Program-made: the position numbers and the translations under genes
Shown: one piece after another, positions 2,651-64,000 of the stretch
How positions within the stretch are numbered: the stretch's first letter is position 1
Layout: each line of letters starts with the position of its first letter
The notes under the pieces: model-generated
Database searches by the model: none
Seen by the model: the letters and a program-made list of their open reading frames with translations, nothing else
What the model was told of the DNA's origin: nothing
Assembly (NCBI GenBank): GCA_036874045.1
Contig: JAZBRI010000011.1
Span: 5,208,001 to 5,272,000, forward strand
DNA: 64,000 nt
Origin: Cymodocea nodosa
Lineage: Eukaryota > Streptophyta > Magnoliopsida > Alismatales > Cymodoceaceae
Direction of reading: 5' to 3'

Positions 2651-2669
2651 TATGTGGAGTTTAAGCATT

Positions 2670-5780: not shown

Positions 5781-5788
5781 AACACAAA

Positions 5789-8009: not shown

Positions 8010-8196
8010 TTTACCTTAGATTTTTCAACTTATTTGATTTTAAACTATCTAAAAACTTTAAAACAACTTGAGCCTTAAATCAATAGAGTTAAACGTATGC
8101 TCAGATATTAATTTCTGTTTAAAAACAAGGAAGGTAGAATAAGCAATGATATTAAATAAGTTGGTATCGATTTTATATCAAAAATTATTAACCAAA

Positions 8197-8208
8197 GCTC
8201 TGATACTA
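8197..8208 (-). other. Primer binding site of A1 (initiator Met tRNA type)
   Basis: On the minus strand it reads TAGTATCAGAGC, one mismatch from the common plant site TGGTATCAGAGC, and lies two bases inside the 5' LTR end. Confidence 0.85.
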
Positions 8209-8210
8209 CT

Positions 8211-22291: not shown

Positions 22292-23975
22292 TAACTTGCA
22301 CAAGTATACACACTAAACATAATATCTGATCAACTAGTTGTTAAATAAAGTAATGAACCAATCATACTTCTATAATGTTTTATATCTATAGTTTTTCCAA
22401 AGTCATCTTTATCGAACTTAGTGATAGTATTCATTGGTGTATTTTTCATTTTAGTGTTGTCTAATCCAAACCTCTTTAATAAATCTCGAATATATTTTTC
22501 TTGTAAAATAAAAGTACCCTATTCTAACTGCTTAATTTGTAAGCCTAAGAAAAATGATAGTTCACCCATCATACTCATTTCAAATTGATTAATCATGTCA
22601 TTCAAAAAAGACTCAACTAATTTTTCATTTGTTGCTCCAAATATAATGTCATCTACATATATTTGAACTACCAATATATCTTTTTCAACCTTTTTGATAA
22701 AAAGAGTGTGATCTACCTTTCCTATAGAATACCCTTTTTCTATAAGAAATTTAGACAATCTCTCATACCAAGACCTAGGGGCTTGTTTAAGGCCATATAA
22801 TACCTTTTTAAGCTTGTAAACATACTCAGGATGTTTTGAATCTTCAAAACTTGGAGGTTGTTTTACATAAACTTTTTCTTTTATATATCCATTTAAAAAA
22901 GCAGTCTTAACATCCATTTGATATAATTTGAAATTCATGTAACAAGCACATGCTAACAAAATTCGTATTGATTCTAGTCTAGCAATAAGAGCAAATGTTT
23001 CATCATAATCAATTCCTTCCTCTTACTTGTAACCTTCAGGAACTAACCTAGCTTTATTTTAACTATATGTCTATCCTGATCTACATTGTTTCTAAATACC
23101 CACCTTGTTCCTATTACAGACTGATTTTCAAGGGGTGGAACTAGATCCCATACCTCATTTCTTATAAATTGATTTAGCTTATCTTGCATAGCTAAATACC
23201 AAAATTCATCTTCTAAGGTATCGTTAGTTTTCTTAGGTTCTAGTAAGGAAACAAAAGAATAAGTCTCACAAATGTTGACTACTAATGACCTAGTCCTAAC
23301 ACCTTGATTAGGATCACCTATTATCTGATCAATAGGATGAGATGAAGCATAACGCCAATTTCTATGTTGTTCCACATTTTCTATAGGCATAACATTATTT
23401 TCTTCTAAATCTTCATTATTTAAGTTTATATTTCTTATTCCGTTAGATAATCTCTCAATTTCTCTATCAACATCATTTGATACCATTTCTGGGAGAATTT
23501 CTTAATCAATGATTTCAGCATATCTAAAATCCAAATGAGAAATTTCATGAAATTTTACATGTAGGGTTTCCTCAATGGTTTTTGTTGATTTATTATATAC
23601 TCTACATGCCTTACTTCTAATGGAATAACCAACAAAAATACCCTCATCTAATTTGGCTCTAAATTTATCTCTACGTTCCTTAGTGTTCAAAATAAAACAC
23701 TTGCAGCCAAAGGGTTTTAAATAACTTATTATGGGAACCCTATTATATCATATCTCATAAGGAGTTTTATCCAAAATGGGTCTTAGATATACTCTATTTA
23801 TAATATAACATGTTGTATGAACTACTTCTTCCAAGAGAAATAGGGGTAACTTATTTTCATTTAACATGGTTTTGGACATTTACTGAAGTGATCTATTTTT
23901 ACATTCTACTATCCAATTTTGTGAAGGAACTCTTGGAAATGAGTACCTATGATTTATGCCTAATTCTTCACAAAA
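22292..23975 (-). pseudogene. pol: Element F, integrase core, linker and RT between insertions E and G
   Basis: Minus strand from right to left: FCEELGINHRYSFPRVPSQN and KNRSLQ of integrase, the LHVKFHEISH linker, HRNWRYASSHPIDQIIGD, then RT with [29 protein letters not shown] and YVDDIIFG, and the start of RNase H near 22300. Several stops and frameshifts (near 22516, 23040, 23490) break it. The right end joins in frame with 41424-42360 across element G (...QMDT then FCEELG), and the left end joins with 15020 across E. Copia, the same subfamily as C. Confidence 0.92.
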
Positions 23976-23980
23976 GGTGT
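23976..23980. repeat. Target site duplication of G, left copy (ggtgt)
   Basis: It is identical to 41419-41423. It splits the Asp-Thr codons of the integrase of F. Confidence 0.93.
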
Positions 23981-25210
23981 TGTTTGGATCTCCAGCACAG
24001 CACCAGAAAACTTGTTTGGATCTCCAGCAATGCGCCAAAAAAACTTAGATTTGTTAACTTCTATTTTTACTTAGTTAATTTATCTTTATGCCTATATCAC
24101 TGAATTCCTTTTTAGAAGTAAACAAACAACCTTTCACACAAATTAGATATTAATTGCAATTTGTATTTTAACTGCAAGTGTAGAGTGTCTATTGTATTAG
24201 TGTGCAAGTATAGGTCGATCCCATAGGGAATTGCTTAAGAATTACAAACTGTTCCATTTTTAACAATCAAATTTATATTCAATAAGCTCTTCTTTGAGTT
24301 ACAGTTAACTCAACAGACAAAGTTCGTTGAATTATGGCTAACTCAACGGACTAACCTCGTGGACTTAAGTTAACTCCACAAGCCTGCCTTTCCTATTTAA
24401 TACTACTATTTACAAAGGAATTCGGCCAACCATTGGGCGGTTTCACAGATTGTAAATAACATCAATTAAGCTCTTTAATGTTAGTAAACACTGGACTTAT
24501 CATTAGGCAATACTAACATTCAGATAATTCAAATAATAACCATTAAAATCTTTAAGTCTTTTTAACGAACTAATTTCAGTAAACTGTAAAACTAAAACAA
24601 ACATAAAACAATCACAACACTGACAAAGATAACATTAATCACGATACAAAACAAACAATACAACACTCAAATACAAAATATAAACACAGATAAGTTGTTT
24701 TTGGTCTTTTTGTTTTGATATGAGCATGGAAATGGGCGAAAGGTGAAATGTAAAGTAATCTCAGTTGACAGTAAATACTTCCATCACTACATGTGACGCG
24801 ATTGTACCACTGAAAATTAAACCACTTACAATTCTGTCTCCTCTCCCTATAGAATCGCGAGTCCAGAATTGCAAGATGATCTCCTCTTCAACATACAGGC
24901 ATCAACCTGAAGCCAAGGCTAGAAGCTTTACGATCTCCTGAGATATGAGTCGGCGCTTGATGAAAATGACTTCCCTTCTTGCGACGCGATCACTCCTCAC
25001 AATAGTTGTCAAATACTGTGTTTTGCTCGGAATCGACCCGACATCAAGAAATTATCCTCATAGACCTCCGATGGTTGGTCATTATGGTGGTGGTGGAGTT
25101 GGTTGGTGTGGTACTTTAGAGAATTGCCGACGTTGCCTATAGAAAGCTCGGTGATCCTCCTCTGCACACACCCATCGGCCACCACCCTTTACTTCTTTTT
25201 CTTCTTTTCT

Positions 25211-25216
25211 TTTATA
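25211..25216 (-). promoter_or_regulatory. TATA box in the G 3' LTR
   Basis: TATAAA inside GAAATATAAAAGA on the minus strand, conserved in the 5' LTR (40390-40395) and in H (57191-57196). Confidence 0.55.
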
Positions 25217-25449
25217 TTTCTTCAATGGTAACTGCTTCTTCTTGAATGGTCGGTTGGATTTCCTTCAATCACATCAACGATGATGATTTCTTCTCCCTTC
25301 GACAAGTGAATTCCTGCGTGACACATGTGATCGTGGTTTTTTTCTTCAAACTATCATGTTTCTGCAATCGCTATAGTGACATATTAGAAAATAAATGGTC
25401 CGTGGAGTTATAGATAACTCAACGGACTTGCTTCGTTGATTTAACTATA

Positions 25450-25880
25450 AAACACGTGCATAAATTTAACTATCCGATGCTCAGGTGCATTTCGGATACT
25501 TACAAACTTAACTATCTGATGCCCAGATGCATTTCGAATAGTTATAAACTTAACTATCCGATGCTCAGATGCATTTCAGATAGTTACAAATAACTCACCG
25601 ATATATAACTTAAGTCAATCTTCTAGATCACGACATGTGTCATCAGTAGTTTTATAATAAAGAAATATTTCGGAGAGTTACAAGTCTAACTATCCGATGC
25701 CTAGATGCATTTCGGATAGTTAGAGATAACTCACTGAAAATCTACTAAAGTCATTCTTCTAGAACATGACATGTGTCATCAGCAGTTTTATAATAAAAGG
25801 AGATTTTGAAGAATTACACATATAACTATCCGATGCCCAACTGCAATTTAGGATACTTAGAGATAACTCACTAAAAGTCT
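25450..25880 (-). repeat. Hairpin-forming repeats in the G U3
   Basis: Three head-to-tail units of about 46 bases (25460-25590), then two or three longer units (about 130 bases), each with AACTATCCGATGC followed after a few bases by GCATTTCGGATAGTT. The arms AACTATCCGA and TCGGATAGTT are exact complements, so each unit can fold into a hairpin. ACATGTGTC boxes lie between them. The same array is in the 5' LTR at about 40640-41060. Confidence 0.85.
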
Positions 25881-26239
25881 ACTTAAGTCATGCATTATGG
25901 TTTCGACATGTGTACTTCAGGAAATAATAAAATATTCTTTTAAAACATAATTGTTCGACAATTTAAACATAACTGTTCAATACATGTTCGGTACGTTAAA
26001 CATAACTGTCCAAAATAACAGAAAATTCGGATACTTAAGAATTTCATAGCCTACAATTTACCGACAGTTCAGAAATGCACTAAATTTACATTAATTTCTT
26101 GAAATTAAGCAGATTCTTTCATTAACGCTTATAACAGTGCAATTAGAACAAAATGGCTTAATTCTCATATGATAAGCTAAATATTATGCAATTAACCATC
26201 ATTTAACCGTTAATATTATGCACTTTTTCATTCTAAAAA

Positions 26240-26252
26240 CTCCCCCCATACC
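26240..26252 (-). other. Polypurine tract of G
   Basis: On the minus strand TATGGGGGGAG abuts the 3' LTR start. It is preceded by caaaatttagg, as is the second tract at 27545. Confidence 0.8.
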
Positions 26253-27558: not shown

Positions 27559-28013
27559 CTACATTTTGCATTATCCTCAATGTAAAGATTTGACAATAAA
27601 TATGATAATTGTAGCAGGCATGAATACAGTTTCATTGATTTAGCACCTAACTCAACGAATGAGTTTAAATCTAAATTCAAGATAAGTAATCAATTACATA
27701 CCTTGTTTCGTTTGTATCTCCTTCTGCATATTCCGATTTTTGATTCTGAAAAACTTTTTATTCATAGATAAAAGCAGAATATATAACAAAATAACAGTTA
27801 ACAAATATTTATAAATCATTGTCTTGTGTGGAACCCAGGTTCCTATGCCTTTGGTGGCTCACAAGCAAGCCAGTTGGTTTCCCAGAACAGATACCAACAA
27901 ACTGGATTGATATTTTATTTTATTTATTTTGTTTTTTTTATAAAATAAACTAAAACTAAAATTTTTCTAAAAGTAAATGCAAAAACACAACATTAAAAGC
28001 ACAAAATCATAGC
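27559..28013 (-). other. 3' flank of the F-box gene
   Basis: No ORF is supported. 27826-27920 is less AT-rich than its surroundings (gaacccaggttcc, ttggtttcccagaacag) and is not repeated elsewhere in the window. It could be the 3' untranslated part of the captured F-box gene. The rest is AT-rich. Confidence 0.4.
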
Positions 28014-29150
28014 TTAAGAACATGATTGAAAAGTAGAAACAAATGGAATAAACGTGTTAGTCCAAGCAAACTTTTTAGGCATAATTCTTCTTGCTATTAA
28101 TTCTATTTTAATGTACTCCGTGTTCCTACTTAATTTGTAAACTTGTAGTATATTATCAATGCTAAATACAAGTGTATTACCATTAATGAAATGAAATGCA
28201 GAAAGGGATCCTTTTCGGTTCCAAGATAATGTAGCAGTTTCTATTTCTACATCTATTTCAATATATTCCTCTTCCCACTTCCATTCATTTATGTCTTTCA
28301 TAATCCATATTTGAAATTTCATCAATTAATCCCAACATCTTATCAAACATAAAGTAGGATCATCATATTCATTATACCACATCCCTATTTGAATTTTATC
28401 AAATTCTGCAAATGGTGGTTTAGCTATTTCTCTCGGTATAAGCAAAATTTCTATATATTCATCATAACTATCTATGCTTACTATCAATAAATTAGATCTA
28501 AATGCAACTGATATATCTGTGACCAGATATATATATCCATCAAGTATGACATGCATGCTGTTAATTAATGATTTCTATCCTAGATATATCATAGTGTTTT
28601 CAGTCCAAGATCTATTCAGAAAATTATACACACTCAAACATAAATCTTCATCCCATTTTCCTATAGGTCTCTAATAATATAATTTTTCAGGAATGGTTGA
28701 ATTTTTATCAGAAAATATTAAAGCCGACCCACAATTTTTAGTTGGTACTTCATATCTATTAGGTCTTCCTATATTCCATTCTTCTCTTGTGATAGGATTT
28801 CTGATCAAAATATTAGGTAATAGAATTGCATACCTTGGTTTAGTCCTGTATATAATTAATCCTTCATCCATCCCCATAATATGATCTATTATTTCTAATG
28901 TATTGGGTGGAATTCCAGTAGTTTCTTCCATATTCAGATATTCATGGCTAATTGAACTACGATTAAATGACTTCCATATGAATCCATCTCTAATCTTAGT
29001 CATTTTCGCAGCTTGTAGTTCATGAAAATATTTTTCTCTAACATAGTCTTTAATTTCCTTTGATACACAACACAACCTGCACAAATCTTTAGCTGACAAG
29101 TTACTTAGTACTTCCCTTAGTGCGCCCAGCGGTAATTGTATCAATTCCAT
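28014..29150 (-). pseudogene. F-box protein gene inside Gypsy element G
   Basis: A 379-codon frame without indels, with stops at codons 160 (28671-28673), 192 (28575-28577) and 275 (28326-28328). Residues 5-45 form an F-box: LPLGALREVLSNLSAKDL, CRLCCVSKEIKDYV. An F-box-associated beta domain follows: MDEGLIIYRTK, ILIRNPITREEWNIG, then WNRKGSLSAFHFING and ILQVYKLSRNTEYI. Its length is usual for plant F-box/FBA proteins, which recruit substrates to SCF ubiquitin ligases through Skp1. No intron is seen. It lies 186 bp after gag on the same strand and inside the LTRs, so it was moved with the element or landed in it. All three stops are single-base changes, so it was intact until fairly recently. 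Confidence 0.8.
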
Positions 29151-29336
29151 TTGTTGATTCTATATAACATAAACAAAAATTTTAGTAAAGACAAAAATTA
29201 ACATAACTACTACACACCCTCGTGGAGTTAGGTCATAATTAAATAGATTAAGTTCGTTGAGTTAAGTAATAACTCTATGATACTATTAACTATAAATAAA
29301 CTTATATATATATATAGTTACTTCAGTTATACTACT
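29151..29336 (-). promoter_or_regulatory. Motif cluster before the F-box gene
   Basis: 29218-29280 holds CGTGGAGTTA, TTCGTTGAGTTAAG and TAATAACTC, the same inverted motifs found before gag, before ORF3 and in the LTR. Short TA repeats follow. A promoter role is inferred. Confidence 0.35.
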
Positions 29337-30516
29337 TCATTTAGCTACCCTCCCAGAAGAGGTATCAATTTCATTAACAATTCTATTGACAAGGTTAGGT
29401 ATTGCTTGTATTGGCAATCCTCCAATGGGTCTAACTTCCATTGATTCCTTTTATTTAAGTGGTATGTTTCTATTTTGATTTTGAATTGCAGCATTTCCAA
29501 ATACAAAATCTAGACAATTGTTTAATTGTTGGATTATCTTTTCTAATTTCTCTATTCTAGATCCTTGTTTAAGTAATGCTTCATAACTTATATTCTTCTC
29601 ATTTATATTTTCTCCTCCCTAGAAATTGTTATTTCTCCAAGATAAATTCGGGTGATTTCTCCAATTAGGATTATAAGAATTTCCAAAGTTATCTTTCTAG
29701 TTTCTAGCATAAATAAAATCTAGATCATTAATGTTTGCATTCTTTTCTACTAGTTTATGATTTAATGATAACTCTTCTATTTTCCTTGTTAATTCAGTTA
29801 ATTTAACTTCAAGCATAGTGCTTGAATCTATTTCATGCATTCCCCTTGGCAATATTCTTTTATCTGTAATAGCTTCAGTTGAGTTTTCCCATTGTGTAGT
29901 TCTTTTTGCAAAGTTTTCTAAATATACCCATGCTTCTTCACTACACAGTTTTAAAAATCCATTATGACAAGTATAAAGATTTCGTTGAAACATCTATGCC
30001 TTCATAAATTATACCTATTAATTGTGCTTTACTCATTGCATGATGTGGACATTGAGTCAATAAATATTTAAATCTTTCAAAATATTTCTAGAATGATTCT
30101 CCCTATTTTTGGCTACACATTAATATTTCTTTTTTCTTTTTAATCATTTGATGTGTTGGATAATATTTTTCTAGAAAAACAGAGTAAAATTCAGTCCATG
30201 CAGAAATTGAATCAGGTGACAGAGCATATAACCATCTCTTAGCTGTGTCTTTTAAAGCAAAAGGGATATATCTAAGTTTAATAGCATTTATACTCATGTT
30301 CGGCATTTTCATCATTTGACAAACTTCGTTAAATTCTCGAAGGAAATAATAGGCATCCTCTCTTTCTAATCCATGAAAATGTGGCAATTGACTAATATAA
30401 TTAGATTTCAGTTCAAACCTATCTCCCTCAAAGTTTGGCAATCCAATACATGAAGGTTCATCAACTAATTCAGGATACAAAATTTCTCCTAATGGTTTTT
30501 CTACTAGAGTAGCCAT
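29337..30516 (-). pseudogene. gag: Athila/Tat-type Gypsy gag placed downstream of pol (element G)
   Basis: Starts MATLVEKPLGEILYPEL at 30516. Capsid blocks: LPHFHGLEREDAYYFLREF, IKLRYIPFALKDTAKRWL, TEFYSVFLEKYYPT, then after a stop FERFKYLLTQCPHHAMSK. A frameshift near 30010 leads to FLKLCSEEAWVYLENFAKR, and the tail has NSYNPNWRNHPNLSW and LIEKIIQQLN-like coiled coil, ending at TGA 29337-29339. There is no zinc knuckle here; the knuckle lies 8.5 kb upstream at the start of the pol frame. In known Athila/Tat elements gag precedes protease. Either gag was split and moved, or a gag fragment from another element was captured. Confidence 0.85.
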
Positions 30517-31622
30517 CTCTACGTTCTCTTTTAAAGAAAGGTTTGCTACACCCCAAAGGATTTCGTTAAAGTCCAGTTCAGAAAATGTTTCAGTACGCCT
30601 CTATGTTGAATATTCCTAGGTAGGTGTTCTTACTAATCGTTTAGTGCTAAGAGAATGAGTCCATGTGCTCATAAATAAAATGGTAGATGATTAATTACAT
30701 ACCAGTCTAAAGCTTTCCATTCAATAAATATTTGTTGACGGATGAAGTAGAATCAGCTACTTCTCCTTTTAGTTCCCCCAACGCATTCTCCTTTCTTTTA
30801 AAAGTGCTGGTAACTCGTAAATAACATTTTGTTTTATATATATAATGCACATCCATAAAGTAAATAAATCTCGTTGCAAGAACGTGTCTTGCAACGTGCA
30901 GCGTGGTTCCTGTTTTTATGGGTACGTGTACCACTACTAATTTCAAATTTTGGTAATCGCTAAGCCAATGAAGTTTCATTCGTGGTTAAAAGAATAACTG
31001 TTCTGCTTAACTTGTTGAGTTACAGATAACTCAAAGGAACAATGTTGGTTACTGTTGCTAACTCTACAAACTAACTTCATTGAGTTACAGATAACTCAAC
31101 GGAGTGACCTTCTGTTATATTACTGACCTCGTGGAGTTAAGTTTAACTCAACGAACTTACTTTATTGAGTTAACACTTAGCAACCTCTAAGTTTACTCCT
31201 CGTAAGTACCTCTATTTTTTTTTTTGTCCTGCACTCTACTAACTGAAATAAAGTTAAATATATGTCATTAATGCAGCATTCTAATCAAAATTCGTTTAAA
31301 TCTGAACATTATATAAATATTTAACTTGCAGTTCATTTCATGTTATGTAGAATTTACATTTTACCTTGCAACATGCAGATATTTTTAAGCATCTATTATT
31401 TAATCCTGTCATTCAGCAAATTGTAAATCTTTTTAAACATTCATGCATAATGTTCCACAAATTATATAACATTCAATATAGTTCATCCATTTCATCATTC
31501 TAAACACGCATGAAAAATATATCTGAAAAACATATATTCATTCATATGAATCAATTACAGTACAATCAAATCAGATATTTTTCATACAAATATATACAAG
31601 TACAAGTAGACAAACTATTCAA
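30517..31622 (-). promoter_or_regulatory. Region between ORF3 and the displaced gag in G
   Basis: No LTR, primer site or target duplication could be found that would make gag a separate nested element. 31010-31190 is dense in inverted motifs (CATTGAGTTACAGATAACTC, CGTGGAGTTAAG, TTTAACTCAACGAAC). 30707-30979 can encode a 90-residue minus-strand peptide (MKLHWLSDYQNLKL) with no family I recognise; it may be leader sequence. 31200-31620 is AT-rich and featureless. It probably acts as a gag promoter/leader (inference). Confidence 0.4.
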
Positions 31623-33877
31623 TTAGCCTCTATTCCTAAGTTCATCTATTTCCTTCTAGAGTTTTTCTAATTGTTGCTCTAATTGTTCTATCCTTTCTAC
31701 AGCTCCAATAATGCCTCTAGAAGGTACAGATACTTCAGCTGCTGCAACATAATTTCTGTATTCTTTCACTGCAATGGTTCTTGGTCTTATCCTTTTGGAT
31801 GTCCATTTCATGAAATCAATATAGTCTACCATCAATATAGGTATCAAATCTCCATAAAATAATTTCTTCTTTGCAGACTTCATTTTGGATAGGAAGACTT
31901 GACACCAATTAACTTGAATTCTATTCACAACTGCATAAGTGGCCTACTTGACAAATTGACTCAGTTCAATGTCATGGCCTTATCGTTGGTAGACATTTTT
32001 AATCAAAATGTTAGCTATCATGTGTGCTTTACCATTTAAATGCTTCAGTCTATTTAATAATGGCACACCAGGATTGATAGCCAAACTGTCCTTGATTTCC
32101 TGCTATATCCATTCAACAGCAGTTGTGCTTTTCAAAATTTCTTTTCCTTCATTCTTCAATCCAAAAATGTTGTGGAGAAGCTCTAGTGTTATCTGCACAT
32201 TAGCTTCCTCCATGTTGGAAATTAATTGTCCTTCTTCTTCTCTTAAATTAGCATAAAAGCAGGGCACTAGATTTTCATATATTGCATGCCCTTTCTGTTG
32301 AGAAATAAATTATAGTAGACCTTGGAACTCAAATAATTCCTTAATTTCTTGCATTCCGTCCTAATTTACTGGTCTACTATATATGATATCATAACCCCTA
32401 ATCTCTTGGTATTTATTATAAGTTTCCTGACTCCAAAAGTATACTTCATTCAGAACTGTTGCTTCAGTCAGGTCAGGAATGTGACTTTGTTGTTCTAGAG
32501 GGGTTTGTTCTTGATCTTCCTCTTCAATAGGTTGAACTTGAACTTGCTGAAAATGTTCTACAGATTCCTGAACATTTGCTTCTGCTTTTGTCTATGGTGG
32601 TGAGCTGGCAGAACTCTCCACTCTATCTTGAAGTGTTTCATTAAATTCAGTTGAATCTGCAAAGTCATTTTTGTCCATATGGCTTTGTTCAACTTCTTGT
32701 TCATTATCTGTTCTTTCTTCTTCCTCCTGACTACCGATCTACATTGTCACTGTTCCTTCTGATTCTTTGGCAAATTGGGATGGAGTCACGGGCAATTCAG
32801 TATCTACCCTATTTTCTATTCCTTCTTCTTATATAGGCTACAGACTTATTCCAGTTTGATTTTCTTCTTTTCTTTGCTCTTGAATTCCAACCTGATTTTC
32901 TTCTTTTATTTGCTCTTGCTACTACTACTCCTGCTCCTCCTCAGAATCGGATAGTAGGTTCACCAAAATTGGCTCTACAGGCCTTGTTAATGTTGGTACT
33001 TTAGATTTAATCTCCTTTTGACATTCAGACGCTATCTCTTTTTCTTTCCTTCATTTGATTAATTGTGCCTAGTCTTCCTCCTCTACTTCTGAGATTAAAT
33101 CCATAAACAAAGGCTCTGCACGCCTTTAAGCCACAGGTACTGGCTCTTCCTATCTAATTTTTTCAATATTTGCTGGTCTCGAAGGACTAGCTTCAGCTTC
33201 TCCTCTTGCAGCAAATCTGATAGTGGTTCTTTGATGCTGTTCAACTTTAATTTTGTATTGGGCTTTCAATTTTTCTACAGCCCTTTCTTGCAAAGTGCAT
33301 CAAATACCAGGTGTGCTTTAGCTACTGCCACATCTTCTAGTTCTCCTTGGTTTTTCCCAACTTGAATCAGTCCTTGGAATTCTCTTAATTCCTCTTCAGT
33401 TAAAGGCCCCAACATTGCTGCTCATGCCAACAACCTGAATGGTGGAACTGAAGGTCCTGGCTGCTGTTCCTCAGGAACAAGTCTTTCAGCAATCGACTCC
33501 TCTTGTTCTTCTTCTGCTTGTTGCTGCTGCCTTATTGCACCCCTTACACGACCAGCAATGCACTTTTTGAACCATAATTTGGCCTTGTGCTAGATTAGCT
33601 CTAGGGCTACTTCGTTGTTTGGCCTGATTTTTCTCTCTTTACTTACAACAATTTATGTTGCTACTCTGATTCTTATTTCCACTATCTTGGGTATTTGTAT
33701 ACCCAAATTTACTAAAAATCTTCTCAAGTTGAAAAGTTCAAATTCTACCTTCTGCAGCTCTTTTTCTCTTGTCGTATTTCAAATTTTCTGTCGCGTGTGC
33801 CATTCCTCTAACTCTTTCAGAAATTCTGATGTGTCAATAGCATCTTCCCAAAACTCGGGCTTTATCTTCCTCATCAT
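31623..33877 (-). pseudogene. ORF3 of Gypsy element G
   Basis: The minus-strand frame from ATG 33875-33877 begins KIKPEFWEDAIDT and LKELEEWHTRQ; the same start is in H at 63913. About 750 codons, with many stops and at least one frameshift near 33290. The middle is low complexity, rich in Q and E (RQQQQAEEEQEES, SDSEEEQE). The last third is conserved with ORF3 of Copia E: RPVNxDGMQEIKELFEFQG, LVPCFYANLREEEGQLISN, LKHLNGKAHMIANIL, NRIQVNWCQVFL and KKLFYGDLIPIL, ending in a leucine-heptad coil (IEQLEQQLEKL). It resembles Transposase_32/ATHILA ORF-1-type proteins (from memory). It lies after pol, where some Gypsy elements carry an env-like ORF. Function unknown. Confidence 0.72.
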
Positions 33878-34444
33878 GGAATTACACAACAACACGGAAT
33901 CGCTCTGATCTTTCTATTCTAAGTTCTAACTGATCTACTGGATAACGCCCCCAAAACCCTAGGTTTTAAAATAAACTCTAATTTTAAGTGGGTAATTGGG
34001 TCATTTCCCAAAAAAAACTCTCACTCTCTCATCTATGGTCTTAACTACAGTACTCCGTTGAGTTACAGTTAACTCAATGGAATAAACTCGTTGACTAACT
34101 TAAGACTCAACGGAGTAAGTTCGTTGAGTTAAGCATAACTCAATTGATCTCTCGTACAAACAGATATATAAAAAAAATAAAAAAAAAATACTTAAGATAA
34201 TAGTTTTTTTTTTTCTTTTTCAGTTTTTACTGGTTTAACCGATAATATGTTTCGGTCAGATCGACCTTTTTTTCAGTTGAACCGATACTATGTTTCGGTA
34301 AAACCAAAAGTTTTTTTTTTTTACTAAAAATTAATATAGATTTTTATGTTCCAGTCATACGATGGATCTAGTCGGTTGAACTACAACGATTTTTTATATT
34401 TTATAATTTTATAATTTTTTTTAATAAAAATAAAAACTGATTTC
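33878..34444 (-). promoter_or_regulatory. Putative promoter region before ORF3 of G
   Basis: A telo-box in palindromic form AAAACCCTAGGTTTT (33953-33967) lies about 80 bases before the ORF3 ATG, and an array of CCGTTGAGTTACAGTTAACT-type inverted repeats is at 34051-34145. Poly-A/T tracts and motifs like GGTTGAACCGA/TCGGTCAGATCGACC fill 34180-34440. The counterpart in H (63133-63912) has the same order. Confidence 0.45.
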
Positions 34445-35735
34445 TTACTGAGTAAAGCTCGAGTAGTCCTCTACTTTGACTTCTTCTATAATTCCAAAGG
34501 AGCTTTTTGGTATTTTCAGAATAGGTCTAACTCTTTGTCCATTTACTTTAAAGATATTCTGATTTTTAGGATTTTCAATCTCAATAGCTCCATAGGGAGA
34601 AATATTTCGAACTATGTAAGGTCCTACCCATCTAGATCTTAATTTTCCTGGATGGTTATGGAGTCTAGCCATGTAAAGATATACTTCTTGTCCTATTTCA
34701 AAGCTTTTTCCTATCATGCTAGAATTTCATTTTCTCTTTTTCTCTTACAGTCTTTGAATAAGCTTCATTCCTAAATTCTTCAAATTCAATTAATTACATT
34801 TTCCTATTTTCAGCAACTTGATTTAAATTAGTGTTTACAGTTTTTAATGCCCAATAAGCTTTATGTTCTATTTCAGTTGGTAAATGACAACTTTTTCCAT
34901 ATACTAGCCTAAAAGGTGGCATACCTAAGCTTGTCTTATAAGTAGTTCTATAAGCCCAAAGTGCATCTATCAATCTATTAGCCCAATCTATTCTAGTAGG
35001 ATTTACTACTTTTTCTAAGATTAACTTAATTTGTTTGTTAGCACTTTCTACTTGTCCACTTGTTTGCGGATGATATGATTTGGCAATTTTATGGTTTACT
35101 CCATATTTCTTCATTAAGGCTTCAAAACTTCTATTACAAAAATGAGTTCCTCTATCACTGATAATAGCTTTAAGTATTCCAAATTTGGCAAATATATTGG
35201 TTCTTATAAATTGTATTACCACTTTGTTGTCATTAGTTTTTGTAGGAATAGCTTCTATCCATTTAGATACATAATCCACCCCTAACAATATGTAATTAAA
35301 TTGATTAGACATAGGAAATATACCCATAAAATCTATTCCCCACACATCAAATATTTCAACCTCAATAATAGGATTAAGAGGCATCATATTCCTCTTTGAT
35401 ATTCTTCCTATTTGTTGACACCTTAAACAATTTAAGAAATATTTATGAGCATCTTTGAATAGTGTTGGCCAATAAAACCCACATTGCAAAATTTTTGCAG
35501 CAGTTTTCCTTGAGCCAAAATGCCCTCCACAAGTTTGGTCATGACAGAAAGACAATATGCTCTAATATTCAATTTCTGGAACACACCTCCTTAAAACCAG
35601 ATCAGGACATTTCTTAAATAAGTATGGGTCTTCCCAATAGTAATATTTTACTCTTGAGAAAAACAATTTCTTATCTTGTCTATTCCAATCCTTAGGTGTT
35701 AAACTAGTAACTAAGTAATTAACTATGTCTGCATA
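34445..35735 (-). pseudogene. pol: Gypsy integrase of G
   Basis: Zinc-binding part: HDQTCGGHFGSRKTAAKIL and [13 protein letters not shown]. Core acidic residues: [19 protein letters not shown] and [14 protein letters not shown] (Glu kept, unlike H). A C-terminal SH3-like end LHNHPGKLRSRWVGPYIV is read in another frame from 34717 after a frameshift near 34750. A stop lies near 35556. It would insert the cDNA. The last residues, VKVEDYSSFTQ, end at 34445. Confidence 0.93.
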
Positions 35736-36907
35736 TCAAGGTATTGTGTTGATGGTCATTAATTGTTTATCAAGAAAATTATCCTTAATTTCAATATTTG
35801 ATTTTTCTATTTGTAATCTTGATAAATGATCTGCTACTACATTCTTACAACCTTTTTTATCTTTAATTTCTAGATCAAATTCTTGTAATAATAATATCCA
35901 TCGAATCGATCTTGGGTTAGTCTCTTTTTTTGCTATTAGGTGTTTTAAAGTTGAATGATCCGTGTATACTATTACTTTAGCTCCAATCAGATATGATCTA
36001 AACTTTTCTAAGGCAAACACAATAGCTAATAGTTTTTTTTCAGTAGTTGTGTAATTAACTTGAGCATCTTTTAAGGTTTTGCTTGCATAATGAATCACTC
36101 TAGGAGATTTTTCTATCTTCTGTCCCAACACTGCTCCTAGAGCAAAATCAGATGCATCACACATTAATTCAAATGGATGGCTCCAATCAGGTGCTTGAAT
36201 TATACAAGTTGAAATTAAGCTAGTTTTAAGTCTAAAAAATGCTTCCTTGCAATTTTTATCAAAGTTAAATGGGACATCTTTTAATAGATTAGTTAAAGGT
36301 CTAGCTATTTTGCTAAAGTCTTTAATAAATGTTCTATAAAAACCAGCATGTCCTAGAAATGATCTAATATCTTTTATTAATTTAGGTTCTGGTAGATTAG
36401 AAATTACTTCTATTTTAGCTTTATCTCCTTCCAACCCTTTCTTTGAAACAACATGCTCTAAGACTATTCCTTGTTTAACTATGAAGTGACATTTTTCCCA
36501 ATTTAAAACCAAATTTTTTTCCACATAGCGTTTTAATATTTGGTCTAAATTTTTTAAACAAACTTCATATGAGTTGCCATATACAGTAAAATCATCCATA
36601 AATATTTCTAAAAAATCTTTAGTCATTCCAGTAAATATGCCGTGCATACACCTTTGAAAGGTAGCTAGTGCATTGCATAATCCAAATGGCATTCTCTTAA
36701 AAGCATAAGTTCCATTTGTACAGGTGAAAGTTGTTTTCTCTTGATCCTCTAATGCTACTGGAATTTGATTATAACCTGAATACCCATCTAGGAAACAAAA
36801 ATATTCTTGCCCTACTAATCTTTCCAACATTTGATCTATAAAAGGTAAGGGAAAATGATCTTTCCTAGTCATAGCATTCAGCTTTCTATAGTCTATACAT
36901 ACTCTCC
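35736..36907 (-). pseudogene. pol: Gypsy reverse transcriptase and RNase H of G
   Basis: [51 protein letters not shown] and the catalytic FMDDFTVYG are [16 protein letters not shown] and [19 protein letters not shown] are RNase H. FMDD in place of YVDD is usual for the Athila/Tat clade. This frame is offset from the protease frame, so a frameshift lies near 36905. Confidence 0.94.
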
Positions 36908-36910
36908 AAC

Positions 36911-38240
36911 CTAATTGAATTCTAGTAGGTCTTGACTTTCATTCCTAGTAACTGTTAATCCTGATTTCTTGGGAACTACATGGATTGGGCTAACCCACGA
37001 GCTATCAGAAATCAGATAAATTATGTCATTATCTAACCATTTCACTATTTCCTTCCTGACTACTTCTTTAAGGTTTGGATTTAATCTCCTCTTAGGAATT
37101 CTAACAGGTTTAGCATTCTCTTCTAAATATATGTGGTGGCAGCATAAAGTTGAACTTAACCCTTTTATATCAGTCATAGTCCATCCTATTGCTTCTTTAT
37201 AACTTTTTACTACTTCTTTTAATTTAGCTATTTGATCTTCTTTTAAATCTGAAGCAATAATGATTGGACAGGTTCGTTTCTCTTCCAGAAATATATAGGT
37301 TAATTCAAGAGGTAAATGTTTTAATTCTAAATGCTGCCCATTAGAGGCCAGAGCTCCTAATTGAACATCATCATTTTCTAAATTAATTTCTTCCAGATCT
37401 CCTTCTGTATTTATGCTTTCACTTTCCTCTAAAGTTTCAGAATTGATTTGCCTATTTAATTCTTCTTGAATCACATCCTCTAAAAAGTCTATGGTATGCA
37501 AGGACATTTCTAACTCCTAAAACCTTTCTGGTTTGAAAATATTTAATTGAGTATCCTCATTACCATATGATAACTTCATTACTCCAGTTTTACAATTTAT
37601 AATAGCTCTTGATGTTGCTAAAAATGGCCTTCCCAAAATTAAAGATGTATCACTATTTTTATGCTTAATTTGTTGGGAATCCAAAATTACAATATCAATA
37701 GGATATATAAAGTTTTTGATTTTAATTAAGACATCCTCTATTTTTCATCTAGGGTATCTTATACTTCTATCAGCTAATTGAATAACCGTACTAGTAGGAG
37801 TTAAGCCTTCTAATCCTAAGGATGGAAATATATCACTTGGCATAACATTTATACCTGCACCTAAGTCTATTAAGGTTCTTTCTAGAATGGTATTTCCTAT
37901 GGTGCATGATATAACAAGGATTCCAGGATTAGATAACTTTTTAGGAATTTGTGGCAAAAATAGGGTACTACTTTGCTCAACTAAAAAGACCTTTCTAAGA
38001 ACCTTTCGCTCTTATTTCGTAGTACACCAATCCTCAAGAAATTTAGCACAAGGTGGCATTTTCTGCAATAGATCTAATAAAGTAATGTTAACTTGTACTT
38101 TTTCAAAAATTTCTCTGATTTTTTCTTATTTTTCAGGTATTGTTTGTTGTAATCTTTCAGGATAGGGCGCTAAAGATTGTGATTTAAAAGATTCTTTTTC
38201 TTTCAGTTGATTTGTTTGATCATTTTTAGCCTCATTAGCA
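36911..38240 (-). pseudogene. pol: Gypsy protease and RT N-terminus of G
   Basis: The Athila/Tat-style lead-in LLDLLQKMPPCAKFLEDW precedes the protease ISCTIGNTILERTLIDLGAG, INVMPSDIF and IQLADRSIRYPR. LIDLGAG is the active-site triad region (D-L-G in place of D-S/T-G, as in Athila). Then IVILDSQQIKH, LILGRPFLATS and the RT lead-in VRIPKRRLNPNLKEVVRKEI. In-frame stops lie near 37535, 37745, 38015 and 38130. Confidence 0.9.
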
Positions 38241-38248: not shown

Positions 38249-39079
38249 TTATTCTTTAGTGATTTCTAGATTTTCAGCTATTACATTTTCATTATCATTT
38301 TGATTTTTACTCTTATCCACCTTCATATTATTTTCATTTTGAGATCTTGGTGGTATATCAGTTCCAAATCTTAATGTTACACATACATCTTCCAGATTTT
38401 CGTTACTCTTGTGATGTTTTTGTATACCATTTTCGTGATTATGATCTTCAATTGTTTGTAGTTTTAAAGTGCATTCTTTAAATTCTCTTTCATTAGTATT
38501 TTCTTTTGGCTGTGTATTTTGCAAATTATGCGGATCTATAACATTATAATTTCCATTGTCCTGTTACATAACTTGTATTTTCATTGTATATTTGTCTAAT
38601 GCTTTTAGTTTTCTTTCCAGATCATCTAATCTCATTGCATTCAATTTTTGATCAATTTTCATTATGGTTTTTTCAGTTTCGTAAATTATATACATTTTAG
38701 GTTCTGAATATGCTTCCTTATAGTTTGATTGGTTGACTTCTTGTTGCTGACACATAAAGTATTCTAATTTGTCTAGGTTTTGCTCTATACTACGCTCTAG
38801 TCTGTCATACCTATCCCAAACTTCCGTGTCTCTCAACATATTACACATTCTATACTAACCATTAGTTGGGTAAACTATAGAATTCTCATACTCGACTCTA
38901 TTATATTGAGGATAAGTCATTTGTTGTTCATGGGATCTAGCCATCTGCAAACGTCTCAGTTTCAAACAGTCAGAAATGTCGTGACCTTCAGAATTACAGA
39001 ATTCACATATGCTAACTATAGGTTTCAGAAATCTTTGAGCATAAGCGTATGCCATATTCTCAATTACAGAAGAAAACAC
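38249..39079 (-). pseudogene. Zinc-knuckle (NC) start of the G polyprotein
   Basis: MFSSVIENMAYAYAQRFLK leads straight into CEFCNSEGHDISDC, a complete CX2CX4HX4C knuckle, then an acidic/charged coil (YDRLERSIEQNLDKLEYF, LDDLERKLKALDKY). The ATG is about 50 bases from the primer site, so there is no room for a capsid domain before it. In Athila/Tat elements the knuckle closes gag. Here it opens the pol frame, and the capsid part is at 29337-30516. Stops at 38855 and near 38560. Confidence 0.82.
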
Positions 39080-39130
39080 ACAACACTCTAGCTATTAAAA
39101 CAAAATAGCTCTAACAGTTGCTTATATGAA

Positions 39131-39149
39131 TTCCCCGACAATGGCGCTA
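39131..39149 (-). other. Primer binding site of G
   Basis: On the minus strand TAGCGCCATTGTCGGGGAA, close to the TGGCGCCGTTGTCGGGGA type used by Athila/Tat elements (tRNA-Asp, from memory). It is 7 bases inside the LTR. Confidence 0.85.
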
Positions 39150-39156
39150 AAAAACT

Positions 39157-41418
39157 TGTTTGGATCTCCAACATAGCACTAGAAAACTTGTTTGGATCTC
39201 CAGCAACGTGCCAGAAAAACTTGGATTTGTTAACTTCTGTTTTTACTTAGTTAATTTATCTTTATGCCTATATCACTGAATTCCTTTTTAGAAGTAAACA
39301 AACAACCTTTCACACAAATTAGATATTAATTCCAATTTGTATTTTAACTACAAGTACATAGTGTCTATTGTATTAGTGTGCAAGTACAGGTCGATCCCAT
39401 AGGGAATTGCTTAAGAATTACGAACTGTTCCGTTTTTAACAATCAAATTTATATTCAATAAGCTCTTCGTTGAGTTACAGTTAACTCAACAGAAAAAGTT
39501 CGTTGAATTATGGCTAACTTAACGGACTAACCTCGTGGACTTAAGTTAACTCCACGAGCCTGCCTTTCCTATTTAATATTGCTATTTATAGAGGAATTCG
39601 GCCAACCATTGGGTGGTTCCACAGATTGTAAATAACATCAATTAAGCTCTTTAATGTTAGTAAACACTAGATTTATCATTAGGCAATACTAACATTCAGA
39701 TAATTCAAACAATAACCATTAAAATCTTTAAGTCTTTTGAACGAACCAATTTCAGTAAACTGTAAAACAAACATAAAACAATCACAACACTGACAAAGAT
39801 AACATTAATCACGATACAAAACAAATAATACAACACTCAAATACAAAATATAAACACAGATAAGTTGTTTTTGGTATTTTTGTTTTGATATGAGCATGGA
39901 AATGGGCGAAAGGGGAAATGTAAAGTAATCTCAGTCGATAGTAAATACTTCCGTCACTACATGTGACTTGATTACACAATTGAAAATTAAACCACTTACA
40001 ATTCTGTCTCCTCTCCCTATAGAATCGCGAGTCCAGAATTGCAAGATGATCTCTTCTTCAACATACAGGCATCAACCTGAAGCCAATGCTAGAAGTTGTA
40101 TGATCTCCTAAGATATGAGTCAACGCTTGGTGAAAATGGCTTCCCTTCCTGCAACACGATCACTCCTCACAATGGTTGTTAAGCATTGTGTTTGGCTCGG
40201 AATCGACCCGACATCGGGAAAGTATCCTCACAGACCTCCGATGGTTGGTGATTATGGTGGTGGTGGAGTTGGTTGGTGTGGTACTTCAGAGAATTACCGA
40301 TGTTGCCTGTAGAAAGCTCGGTGATCCTCCTCTGTACACATTGACCACACCCATCGGCCACCACCCTTTACTTCTTTTTCTTCTTTTCTTTTATATTTAT
40401 TCAGTGGTAACTGCTTCTGCTTGAATGGTCGGTTGGATTTCCTTCATTCATATCAACAACGATGATTTCTTCTCCCTTCGATGAGTGAATTCTTACGTGA
40501 TACGTGCGATCGTGGTTTTTTTCTTCCAACTATCCTGTTTCTCCAACCGCTATAGTGACATATTAGAAAATAAATGGTCCGTGGAGTTACAGATAACTCA
40601 ATGGACTTGCTTCATTGATTTAACTATAAAACACGTGCATCAATTTAACTATTCGATGCTCAAGTGCATTTCGAATACTTACAAACTTAACTATCTGATG
40701 CCTAGATGCATTTCGGATAGTTACAAACTTAACTATCTGATGCTCAGATGCATTTCAGATAGTTACAGATAACTCACCGATATATAACTTAAGTCAATCT
40801 TCCAGATCACGACACGTGTCATCAGTAGTTTTATAATAAAGAAATATTTCAGAGAGTTACAAGTCTAACTATACGATGCCCAGATGCATTTCGGATAGTT
40901 AGAGATAACTCACTGAAAATCCACTTAAGTCATTCTTCTAGAACATGACACGTGTCATCAGTAGTTTTATAATAAAAGGAGATTTCGGAGAGTTACACAT
41001 ATAACTATTTGATGCCCAACTGCAATTTCAGATACTTAGAGATAACTCACTGAAAGTCCACTTAAGTCATGCATTATGGTTTCGACATGTGTACTTTAGG
41101 AAATAATAAAATATTCTTTTAAAACATAACTGTTTGGCAATTTAAACATAATTGTCTAGTACATGTTTGGTACGTTAAACATAACTATCCAAAATAACAG
41201 AAAATTTGGATACTTAAGAATTTCACAGCCTGTAATTTACCGGTAGTTCAGAAATGCACTAAATTAATATTAATTCCCTGAAATTAAGCAAATTCTTTCA
41301 TTAACGCTTATAACAGTGCAATTATAACAAAATGGCTTAATTCTCATATGATAAGCTAAATATTATGCAATTAACCATCATTTAACCGTTAATATTATGC
41401 AATTTTTCATTCTAAACA
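39157..41418 (-). repeat. 5' LTR of G (2262 bp)
   Basis: Starts TGTTTAGAATG at 41418 and ends GATCCAAACA at 39157 (minus strand), with a TGTTT/AAACA terminal inverted repeat. TATA box at 40390-40395; hairpin repeats at 40640-41060; two primer-site-like units at 39157-39225. It is followed by the target duplication ggtgt. Confidence 0.95.
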
Positions 41419-41423
41419 GGTGT
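41419..41423. repeat. Target site duplication of G, right copy (ggtgt)
   Basis: It equals 23976-23980; removal of G restores the integrase reading of F. Confidence 0.93.
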
Positions 41424-54778: not shown

Positions 54779-55039
54779 TGTTCAGAATGAAAAAGTGCAT
54801 AATATTGACTATTAAATGATGGTTAATTGCATAATATTTAGCTTATCATATGAGAATTAAGCCATTATGTTATAATTGCACTATTATATGCTTTAATGAA
54901 AGAATCTGCATAATTTCAGGGAATTAATGTTAATTTCGTATAATTTTGAACTGTTGGTAAATTGCAGGCTGTGAAGTTCTTTATCATCTGAATTATATGT
55001 TATTTCGAAGAGTTATATTTAATGTACCAAATAGTTATG

Positions 55040-55345
55040 TTTTAAATGCTAAAAGAATATGTAGGTACACAGTAACAACTCGTTGAGTTAAAGGCTTAAA
55101 TGTGTAAAAGGTACAAGTAGCAACTCGTTGAGTTAGTGAGTAAAAATCGTAAGTTGTATATCTGAACTCGTTAAGTTAGATTTATGCACATGTTGAATTT
55201 AAATGCTTTTAGTAGATCATGTGAGATGCACATGTTTAACTCGTTAAGTTAGTATAACTGTACGCGTTGAGTTACATGAATACACACTAAGGTAATGCGT
55301 TATGTTAGCAGCTTATTTCTTTATTGCACGTGTTTTATAGTTAAA
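55040..55345 (+). promoter_or_regulatory. Copia-like U3 block within the Gypsy LTR of H
   Basis: Here G has the hairpin array. H instead has AACTCGTTGAGTTA and AACTCGTTAAGTTAG repeats and the order gcacatgtttaactcg, gttaagttagtataac, gcgttgagttac, acactaaggtaatgcg, which is the order found in the Copia A LTR (45860-45955). Confidence 0.75.
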
Positions 55346-55358
55346 TCAACGAAGTAAG

Positions 55359-56977
55359 TGTTGAGTATTTTGTTTTGATGATGTGTGCTGAATGAAATTA
55401 ATCATATTTGCTCAATTACTATTGCTTGTGAAAGGAAATTAAAATCATTAATTTATACAGAAAAAGCTTACTGATATAAATACTTGTCTGTATTGGATCT
55501 AAAATTATACCAAGTTGATAACTAGTCGTTTCATTGCATTAATTTCTCATTTAACTAAACGTTAAGTTAATGTGTATTTTTATTGAAAAGCATGATATGT
55601 TTTAAAGTTATATCTTCTGTATCATGTATAGTGCATGTTTGGACAACTCGTTAAGTTAGAGTTTTGTGTGTATAGAGATCACATGAGAACTCATTAAGTT
55701 AAAGGCTTAAAGGTTAAAATAGGTCATGTGATAACTCGTTAAGTTAGTGTTATACATGTGGTGAAATTATAAGTTACGAATGTTATATTGTATCATATGA
55801 GGTGCACATATTTAACTCGTTAAGTTAACATAACTAAACGCGTTGAGTTACTATATTGAACACTAAGGCAACACGTTAGGTTAGTATTATAAACTTAAGT
55901 TGTTATTTTTGCACGTGGTAAAATTCTTATTATAAAAATAATTTTTTATTACTGGTTTGTTGAGTTATCTGGAACACAACAGAGATGGTTCATTGAGTTA
56001 GCGTAACACCACAGACTTAGTTCGTTGAGTTAGTTACAGTACTTGTCACGTGAATTGGCACATGAGAAACTCATTAAGTTGAAAATGTTAAGTTATATAT
56101 ATACTTGTGTTACTCGTTTAGTTAACATTAAAGTAATGACTTCTTATTATACTTGATGAAAATTTTGGACGAGAAAGTTTATTTTGCAGGAAATTTTTCA
56201 AAGATCTAGGATTGATGATTAAAGAAAAATTCGAAATGTAAACGTGGGTCAGAACGTGTGTATTTCAATGAAGGAAAAAGAAAAGACGTGAAGAAGTGGA
56301 AAACTGGTAGTGGTTAAACGTGGAGGATATGCATGAAATGTAGATATAGTATAAAAGACATAGAATTCTCGTTGATCAAACCATCCTTGCACACAAAACG
56401 AAAAATCTTTTCAAGGATCAAACTATCCGTACACATCCAACGTAAAATCTTTTCAAGGATCAAAAACACCTTTCGGGAAAATCTCTTAGATAGAAGAAAA
56501 TTCAATGACGTAGAAAAGGTCAAATTTATGTCGCTGAAGATTTGAAGTATTAGATAGAAGAAAATTCAGTGAAGTAGAAAAAGGTAAGATTTACGTCACT
56601 GAAGATTTAAAGTATTAGAAGAAAGCAAATTCGGTGAAGTACAAAAAGACAAGATATTCGTCATTGAAGAATTGCTGAAGAAGAAAAAGAAGAAGAAGAA
56701 GAAAGATCTCAAACAAGGAGAAATGTTTTAAAATTCTGCAAATTAGTTTTCTCTGTTTGTAGTTATGAAATTATTTAGATGATACATGGTATCAATATAT
56801 AATTGCATCTACAATTTCTGAGGAGAACTGAATTGTATATTGTAATTGAAACCTTGAATAAAAATGATTTTATGAAAACAATGTCTCGACTTGTTTTTGA
56901 GTTTTAAGTTTCAATTATATTCAAAAATGTTGAAAAACACAATTCACCCCCCTCTTGTGTAGCCATACGATCCTACA
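55359..56977 (+). repeat. Solo A-type Copia LTR inside the H LTR
   Basis: TGTTGAGTATTTTG to CGATCCTACA, 1619 bp, TATA at 56350-56358. Before it gaagtaag, after it atatgtcc; the G LTR at this place reads gaagcaagtcc, so gtaag/atatg is probably a decayed duplication. No primer site follows, so it arose by LTR-LTR recombination. Confidence 0.88.
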
Positions 56978-58395
56978 ATATGTCCATTGAGTTATCTGTA
57001 TCTCCACGGACCATATATTTTCTAATATGCCATTGTAGTAGTTGTAGAAATAGGACATTCGAAGGAAGACCATGATTACACGTATCACGTAGGAATTCAC
57101 TCGTGGAATGAAGAAGAAATCATCATCGTCGATATGAATGAAGGAAATCTAACTGATCAATTAAGCAGGAGCAGTTACTACTATAAGAAATATAAAAGAC
57201 GTAGAAAAAGTGTGTGCAAAGTGTGTTGGAGAACCGCGCTAACTACATGCAATGTCGGAAGTTCCCTGAAGCTTCACACCAACACCATCACCATCACCAA
57301 CCATCGAAGGTTTGTGAGGATACTTTCTTGATGTCGGGTCGATTTCGAGCCAAACACGGTGCCTAACAACTACTGTGAGGAGTGATCGCGTCATAGGAAA
57401 GGAAGCCATTTTCACCAAGCACCAATTCATATCTCAGGAGATCGTAAAGCTTTTAGCCTTGGTTTCGGGTTGATGCCAGTATGTTGAGGAGGAGATCATC
57501 TTTCAATTTTGGACTCGCGATTCTATAGGGAGAGGAGACAAGATTGTAAGTGATTAAATTTTCAATGGTGTAATCGCGTCGCATGTAGTGACGAAAATTT
57601 TTACTATCGATAGAGATTTCTACATTTCATTCATTTTTAGGAACACATTAAAAACAAAAACACCAAAAATAACTACTTATTTGTGTTTACAGTTTGTATG
57701 TAAGTGTTGTATTGTTTGTTTTGTATTGTGATTAATGTTATCGTTGCTCGTATTGTGAATGTTTTGTGTTTAATTGATTCAGAAAATAGATAATAGTTCT
57801 ATAGTTTACTAAAAATAATTCGTTCCAGTTACTTGAAGATTTCAATGGTTAATGTTTGAAATATCTGAATACTAGTGTTGCTTAATGATAAATCTAATCT
57901 TAGCTAGCATCAAAGAACTTAATTGATGTTATTTACAATCTATGGAATCGCCTAATGATTGGCTGAATTCCTCTGTAATTAATAGTATTGTTAGACTTGT
58001 GGAGTTAACTTAAATCCACAAGGTTAGTTCATTGAGTTAACCATAACTCCACGAACTAGGTCCGTTGTGTTAACTATAATTCAATGGAGTGTTTTACTGA
58101 ACACATAAACTCCAATATAAAAATCGAAACAGTACACAATTTTTATTCTATCTCTCCCTGTGGGATCGACCTATACTTGCACACAAATACAATATACACT
58201 ATGCACTTGTAGTTAAAACACAAATTGGAATTAATAGCTAATTCGTGTGAAAGGTTGTTAGTTTACTTCTAAAAGTAATTATTGATATAAACATAAAAAC
58301 AAAAGTTAGCTAAACTCCAAACAAGTTTTCTAGCACCGTTGTCGGGGAACTAAACAAGTTCTCTAGTGCCGCCTAAAAACCCAAACAAGTTTTCT

Positions 58396-58412
58396 AGCAC
58401 CATTGTTGGGGA
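58396..58412 (+). other. Primer binding site of H
   Basis: AGCACCATTGTTGGGGA, a degenerate form of the G site; a better-preserved relative, AGCACCGTTGTCGGGGA, is found upstream in the LTR end (58332-58348). Confidence 0.75.
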
Positions 58413-58496
58413 GAGATTGAGAAGCTAAGCAATTGTGAGTGCTATTTTGTTTTAATAGCAAGAGGAGTGTGTGTGTTTTCTTATCTAATTGAGAAT

Positions 58497-63912: not shown

Positions 63913-64000
63913 ATGAGGAAGATGACACCCGAGTTCTGGGAAGATGCAATTGACACTTTAGAATTTCTTAAAGATTTAAAGGAATGGCATACAAGGCAGA
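63913..64000 (+). CDS. ORF3 of H, first codons only
   Basis: ATG 63913 reads MRKMTPEFWEDAIDTLEF and LKDLKEWHTRQ to the window end. It is nearly identical to the start of ORF3 of G (MRKIKPEFWEDAIDT), which fixes the start codon. The rest is outside the window, so its state is unknown. Confidence 0.7.
   Translation, partial: MRKMTPEFWEDAIDTLEFLKDLKEWHTRQ

Follow-up and report, generated by a model that had tools for sequence, protein, structure and literature searches.

An F-box gene is co-amplified with a high-copy, Athila-like Ty3/gypsy retrotransposon family of Cymodocea nodosa

An F-box protein normally marks which proteins the cell destroys, and plants have large families of F-box/FBA genes. 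Here we ask why a gene of this kind is found inside an LTR retrotransposon in a 64,000-nucleotide stretch of Cymodocea nodosa DNA (the window; contig C11, JAZBRI010000011.1, 5208001-5272000, from a genome of 374.6 Mb, ~375 Mb, in 28 contigs). The explanation that we favour, with a probability of about 0.8, is that a high-copy, Athila-like Ty3/gypsy family carries the gene as a co-amplified accessory gene, and that some active lineages of that family have kept it open.

Architecture of the element and its F-box gene

The gene is located in element G, a 17.4-kb Ty3/gypsy LTR retrotransposon that runs on the minus strand from 41416 down to 23980 (Table 1). Its two LTRs of 2.26 kb differ by 116 transitions, 27 transversions and 2 gap events (K2P 0.067), and their termini differ from the usual TG..CA. 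With these LTRs, a target-site duplication that is one base off, a primer-binding-site-like sequence (which we take to be of the tRNA-Asp type), a polypurine tract and a series of protease, reverse transcriptase (RT), RNase H and integrase in which the protease scores below its cut-off, G is a Ty3/gypsy LTR retrotransposon. In the sense direction the order is CCHC-like frame, protease, RT/RNase H, integrase, Transposase_32-like ORF, gag, F-box gene and 3′ LTR.

Table 1. Positions of features within the window
Feature	Position	Strand	Remarks
5′ LTR of G	39156..41416	-	93.7% identity to 3′ LTR
3′ LTR of G	23980..26237	-	93.7% identity to 5′ LTR
Target-site duplication AGGTG, left	23975..23979	.	
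Target-site duplication AGGTG, right	41418..41422	.	One extra base (41417) intervenes
Primer-binding-site-like sequence	39131..39149	-	Adjoins 5′ LTR; from sequence
Polypurine tract	26238..26252	-	Adjoins 3′ LTR; from sequence
Short 5′ frame	38252..39091	-	CCHC-like stretch (by eye); runs into pol
Aspartic protease	37520..38011	-	PF13650 E 0.0011, below cut-off
Reverse transcriptase + RNase H	35739..36938	-	PF00078 E 4.1e-27; PF17917 E 3.7e-36
Integrase	34448..35561	-	PF00665 E 9.8e-14; PF17921 E 1.9e-11
Accessory ORF	31659..32600	-	Weak likeness to Transposase_32 (PF20167 E 0.0018, below cut-off)
gag (capsid), downstream of pol	29330..30600	-	PF03732 E 6.9e-19, stops as X
F-box/FBA gene	28014..29150	-	378 codons + terminal stop, start at 29150; 3 internal stops
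TATA-like (TA)n tract	29303..29316	-	~155 bases upstream of F-box ATG; ≥10 bases in 35/37 aligned copies
Two GTTGAGTTA half-sites upstream of F-box ATG	29222..29264	-	12-base forms exact in 12/37 and 22/37 copies
GTTGAGTTA half-site downstream of F-box gene	27648..27656	-	
GTTGAGTTA cluster upstream of gag	31014..31199	-	
GTTGAGTTA cluster between integrase and accessory ORF	34053..34144	-	
Further GTTGAGTTA motif sites	24291-24404, 25402-25443, 39465-39581, 9000-9628, 42554-43166, 45592-46226, 52454-53096, 55082-56124		
G2, second related element	54781..64000	+	Pol stretch 86% identical to G; broken off just past window

A single RNase H region was detected in G (35565-36938). The additional RNase H that characterizes the Tat clades was not found in 34448-35561 at E≤1, a search that a degenerate domain could escape, and in this respect G agrees with Athila. 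In the G family, however, gag does not precede pol as it does in Athila, and we therefore call G Athila-like and not a member of Athila. The only capsid match in the element lies downstream of the integrase, and a profile scan of the 5′ frame at 38252-39091 returned no capsid domain. A protein database search with this gag gave one match only, a Nicotiana protein (E 5.9e-5).

The gene order was then compared across a second contig (C1), using lists that hold exact matches only. At 100 exact RT places, the gag 22-mer was found 4.5-9.5 kb downstream on the same strand in 31, the F-box 22-mer in 25, and either of the two in 39, compared to 3 each in the opposite-strand and upstream controls. None of these 100 places had gag 0.1-5 kb upstream of RT. 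Likewise, inspection by hand placed 10 of 40 listed RT places, besides that of the window, 5.9-8.8 kb upstream of an F-box place on the same strand. Since the spacing of RT, gag and F-box gene is repeated elsewhere, the order with gag after pol belongs to the family and not to one copy. With its capsid gene after pol, the family deviates from the gag-pol order regarded as standard in elements of this type.

The initial annotation had described a full-length frame of 379 codons with an F-box and an FBA-like domain, situated on the coding strand of a 17.4-kb Gypsy element, after gag and before the 3′ LTR, with three point stops and no indels. The placement was borne out by the LTRs and by the matches to gag (PF03732) and the F-box (PF00646), and the frame is indeed full length and free of indels, with stops at codons 160, 192 and 275 from the ATG; the figure of 379 counts the terminal stop. 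By chance, a first-order Markov model of 28014-29150 yielded a mean of 34.8 stops and a minimum of 14 (5000 runs). From the LTR divergence, 1.35 stops and 0.5 indels would be expected since insertion, against 3 and 0 observed (P(≥3) 0.16); the frame could thus have been free of stops when the element inserted.

The F-box itself is significant: PF00646 matched the window copy with E 3.8e-9 (stops as X), or 1.2e-9 when confined to the 158 uninterrupted residues that follow the ATG, and scored above its curated cut-off in the window copy, in 7/7 open copies scanned and in one copy of a fourth subfamily (subfamily D, copy L063). An F-box-associated part is supported by scores that lie below curated cut-offs. 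TIGR01640 (F_box_assoc_1) matched the C-terminal part of two open copies scanned with E 2.9e-6 and 5e-6 (26-27 bits versus a cut-off of 37.9), FBA_1 matched 2/7 open copies below its cut-off (best E 0.035), and FBA_3 matched a piece of the window copy with E 1.9. The search for homologues proposed in the initial annotation was negative: against 5.8 billion proteins, no homologue was returned at E≤0.001 by the window protein (X at stops; 1430 word-sharing candidates scored) or at E≤10 by a profile of seven open copies (2644 word-sharing candidates scored). As the scoring covers word-sharing proteins, a host donor may lie outside this set. A search of the PDB gave no match by profile and one meaningless match by sequence (E 0.84), and the predicted fold of the unbroken first 159 residues was uninformative (mean pLDDT 41).

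Other repeats share the window with G. The related element G2 was considered as a control and proved uninformative, as it is interrupted just past the window edge; its 5′ LTR holds a nested insertion and its 3′ part is unreadable. The left end of the window (1-9822) is ~94% identical to a stretch downstream of the window (C11:5276364-5285950; L029, L030), and would represent either a duplication or a repeated nest of elements. At 658-1161 there is a tandem pair of 252 bases, 99% identical, with the same short peptide frame in both units.

The F-box gene is co-amplified with the element

A 22-mer from the F-box domain occurred at 2920 places genome-wide (≤1 mismatch; reversed control 0), a number similar to those of 22-mers from gag (2517) and RT (3434), with one 22-mer place not necessarily being a whole gene. 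A C-terminal 22-mer occurred at 511 places (≤2 mismatches; control 1). Searches with the entire gene were consistent with full-length copies: the best 40 of 4554 candidates from a DNA search all spanned the whole or almost the whole of the F-box stretch, at ~95% identity. Protein searches with the window protein and with a subfamily D copy each returned 109 places as the best of 7004 and 6993 candidates, respectively; all were complete or almost complete, 14 and 42 of them lacked stops, and by eye the two lists did not overlap. As both lists contain the places with the best scores and miss frameshifted copies, these numbers are lower bounds. Two copies at which the first F-box 22-mer was present and the last was unlisted (L062 and L063) both proved to be full-length F-box genes with 89% DNA identity to the window copy.

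The surroundings of the gene were also repeated. Among 38 fetched copies, which are those nearest to the window F-box and hence were picked by possession of the gene, gag lay upstream in 35 and a 3′ LTR downstream in 32. On C1, where copies were located by exact 22-mers, the F-box 22-mer followed on the same strand, 328-503 bases further downstream, for 50 of 99 gag places, and 50 of 80 F-box places were preceded by the gag 22-mer at that spacing; inspection by hand showed that at least 3 of the remaining 49 gag places have an F-box place in the protein-search list. The F-box gene has thus been co-amplified with the element; in most of the copies fetched it is on the coding strand, with gag on one side and the 3′ LTR on the other. 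This backs, well beyond one copy, the proposal of an F-box/FBA gene carried by the element, and the suggested comparison with other elements found the gene at the same place in most of those fetched.

These arrangements bear on two explanations that would separate the gene from the element. The inverted repeat arms that flank the F-box gene (27628-27659 and 29253-29284) could point to a chance event late in the history of the window copy alone, namely the insertion of a host gene or of another transposon. However, the arms are part of a dispersed motif found too in LTRs and ahead of other ORFs, and a chance event of this type is excluded for practical purposes because the same order of gag and F-box gene recurs in 35/38 fetched copies, as well as at many C1 places. 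A host F-box gene or pseudogene family merely lying near elements would fit the size that F-box/FBA families reach in plants, and is just as improbable in the extreme, given that LTRs and a target duplication enclose the gene and that gag and an LTR flank most fetched copies.

Most copies near to that of the window are no longer intact. In an alignment of 39 near copies, most of which carry stops or indels, 3 were open, 8 had an internal frame-breaking indel and 4 more lacked bases at the alignment end; no internal stop was common to all 39. Open copies were nevertheless present in each of four subfamilies (A-D), whose members diverge by up to 13.6% of bases, and several F-box copies carried codon-sized insertions. 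Five of the 38 fetched copies, all on another contig (L012, L013, L023, L024 and L043; C18, 3.9-5.2 Mb), formed a tight group in the F-box tree, and all but L013 share the same deletion and LTR break. This pattern suggests a segmental duplication, and the five copies are accordingly not independent.

Selection on the F-box gene

In the F-box gene of the 39 near copies, observed changes relative to expectation amounted to 0.81 for shared variants and 1.00 for rare variants, with a mean pairwise ratio of 0.94. Similar values were obtained for gag (shared 0.84, rare 1.04), for wrong frames and for non-coding stretches. Polymorphism among near copies is neutral and consists mostly of changes that followed insertion.

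To reach the time before insertion, net dN/dS was calculated between subfamilies by subtracting the divergence within each. The groups were taken from the tree, with 4/54 copies left out and with subfamily D consisting of two copies. In the coding frame, net dN/dS was 0.45 for A-B (95% interval 0.24-0.89), 0.33 for A-C (0.14-0.71) and 0.39 for B-C (0.22-0.65), while the two wrong frames gave 1.07-3.78 for the same pairs. Comparisons with the two copies of D gave 0.75, 0.75 and 0.83, with all intervals including 1 (other frames 0.89-2.00). An earlier grouping with fewer copies had given 0.51, 0.67 and 0.60, again with all intervals including 1, and the outcome therefore hinges on the grouping. 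For the pol of G and G2, gross ratios in three pieces were 0.33, 0.46 and 0.77.

By region, net dN was below dS in 6/6 comparisons for codons 166-377 and in 5/6 for codons 46-165. In the first 45 codons, which encode the F-box itself, net dN exceeded dS in 3/6 comparisons, with too few changes to show constraint. The difference between the two F-box 22-mer counts (511 vs 2920) had raised the idea of an arms race in the C-terminal part, an idea abandoned once codons 166-377 gave a net dN lower than dS in every one of the six comparisons. The test of dN/dS across copies called for by the initial annotation thus gave a divided answer, with constraint indicated among A, B and C, neutrality among near copies and non-significant values for D. 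Constraint on the F-box gene is likely in some lineages, and unproved for D and for the F-box part alone. The data support in part a model in which purifying selection would act in some subfamily lineages while they are active, with neutral decay after insertion.

The neutrality of near copies, the D comparisons and earlier grouping that do not differ from 1, and the stops or indels in most aligned near copies could describe a gene captured by chance in a founder and carried without function by a successful family. We consider such a functionless ride rather improbable, since frames have stayed open in four subfamilies, the insertions are codon-sized and net dN/dS is 0.33-0.45 in three comparisons; the neutrality of near copies does not discriminate here, because gag is equally neutral. 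A functional protein might instead have the element itself as its target, for example by affecting the turnover of Gag or the number of copies, rather than host silencing. The F-box gene adjoins gag in a repeated arrangement, an adjacency that is perhaps mere history. We regard this possibility as unlikely, though a shade less so than a functionless ride; as it amounts to our favoured explanation with a different target, the odds of the two overlap.

A palindromic motif, known systems and a possible role

The non-coding parts of G are rich in a short palindrome. The motif GTTGAGTTA and its reverse complement, mostly 13 bases apart, occurred 143 times in the window versus 25 expected and a maximum of 35 in 100 shuffles, and GTTGAGTTA-N4-TAACTCAAC was found at 34,567 places genome-wide (≤1 mismatch; control 1), its spacer being variable. 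Within G the motif lies in the LTRs and ahead of the accessory ORF, gag and the F-box gene, with 0 occurrences in pol, the F-box gene and the accessory ORF and 1 in gag. The motif cluster that the initial annotation had reported upstream of the F-box gene was recovered as two half-sites. By eye, the motif also fills repeats that resemble LTRs of Copia-type elements. In 133 dyads from the window and the fetched loci the half-sites were near fixed and the spacer was not, a conservation partly forced by the mismatch selection and drawn from loci that are mostly related G copies. Neighbouring motifs in fetched loci were often 33, 52 or 65 bases apart. The palindrome looks like a candidate binding site.

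Additional sense ORFs between pol and the 3′ LTR are a known kind of gene in plant LTR retrotransposons (PMC7264820), and the F-box gene of G resembles them as an extra sense gene in the same region of many family copies. The ORFs named in the accessible portion of that source are env-like or of unknown kind and none is an F-box gene, and the capsid gene of G after pol falls outside the order described there. Like Athila, G has protease, RT, RNase H and integrase with no extra RNase H found; its ORF after the integrase, whose likeness to Transposase_32 scores below the cut-off, may correspond to the Athila ORF-1/Transposase_32 ORF that part of the lineage carries after pol, as in sunflower Athila 14 (PMC6317226, PMC11728184, as far as the available parts go). 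Unlike Athila, it places the gag capsid gene after pol and the accessory ORF, and adds the F-box gene. Retand elements share with G a long region between pol and the 3′ LTR with extra ORFs, but according to the portion available these ORFs are antisense, mostly TRP28, and the LTRs measure 315-1194 bp (PMC11963269), in contrast to the sense ORFs and longer LTRs of G. Gene transduction by maize Bs1 likewise placed a cellular-type gene in sense orientation in an LTR element, although according to the review such transduced genes exist in no more than one or a few copies (PMC7264820).

F-box proteins that act on silencing factors are known from other settings, again from partial texts. Polerovirus P0 silencing suppressors are F-box proteins of a plant-cell parasite (PMC6593998, PMC7582759), and UCL1 is an F-box protein able to remove the chromatin silencer CURLY LEAF, but is a host gene and not element-borne (PMC4331533). 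Both viral P0 (PMC6593998) and host UCL1 (PMC4331533) indicate that F-box proteins can act on such factors; for the protein of G, a role of this type, raised as speculation in the initial annotation, is conjectural. The motif arrays of VANDAL transposons, which have the anti-silencing VANC proteins, are similarly dense in non-coding parts of the element, as described in an excerpt of PMC5735166; unlike them, the GTTGAGTTA motif is palindromic and common to different element types. Searches of the open-access literature, with most subscription papers outside their scope, did not find a retrotransposon-borne F-box gene. The term 'F-box' has 0 occurrences in the Athila paper PMC6317226, and a sunflower repeat paper handled F-box contigs as redundant genes (PMC3852528, in the part available). 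Extra sense ORFs after pol are already known, and an F-box gene among them appears new within the literature searched.

We propose that a host F-box gene would have been captured long ago by the element. It could be expressed via the element transcript or from a local promoter, for which the TA tract and the motif half-sites are candidates. The F-box of the protein would dock on host SKP1, and its FBA part would deliver a protein, either of the host or of the element, to an SCF ubiquitin ligase, to the benefit of the element; our guess is that the likeliest targets are factors by which the element is limited. A more ambitious version, in which the re-ordered lineage (pol first, capsid last) adopted an SCF substrate adaptor as a component of its replication machinery, used it to destroy a restraining host factor and so reached thousands of copies, perhaps together with a regulator reading the palindromes, is conceivable and in our estimation doubtful, if somewhat less so than an action on the element itself.

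For many accessory genes of plant retrotransposons, no biochemical function is known. Where such a gene encodes an F-box adaptor, a function suggests itself, namely that of recruiting a ubiquitin ligase. In a family rich in copies and in open frames, this would be a directly testable way for a retroelement to influence the cell that hosts it.
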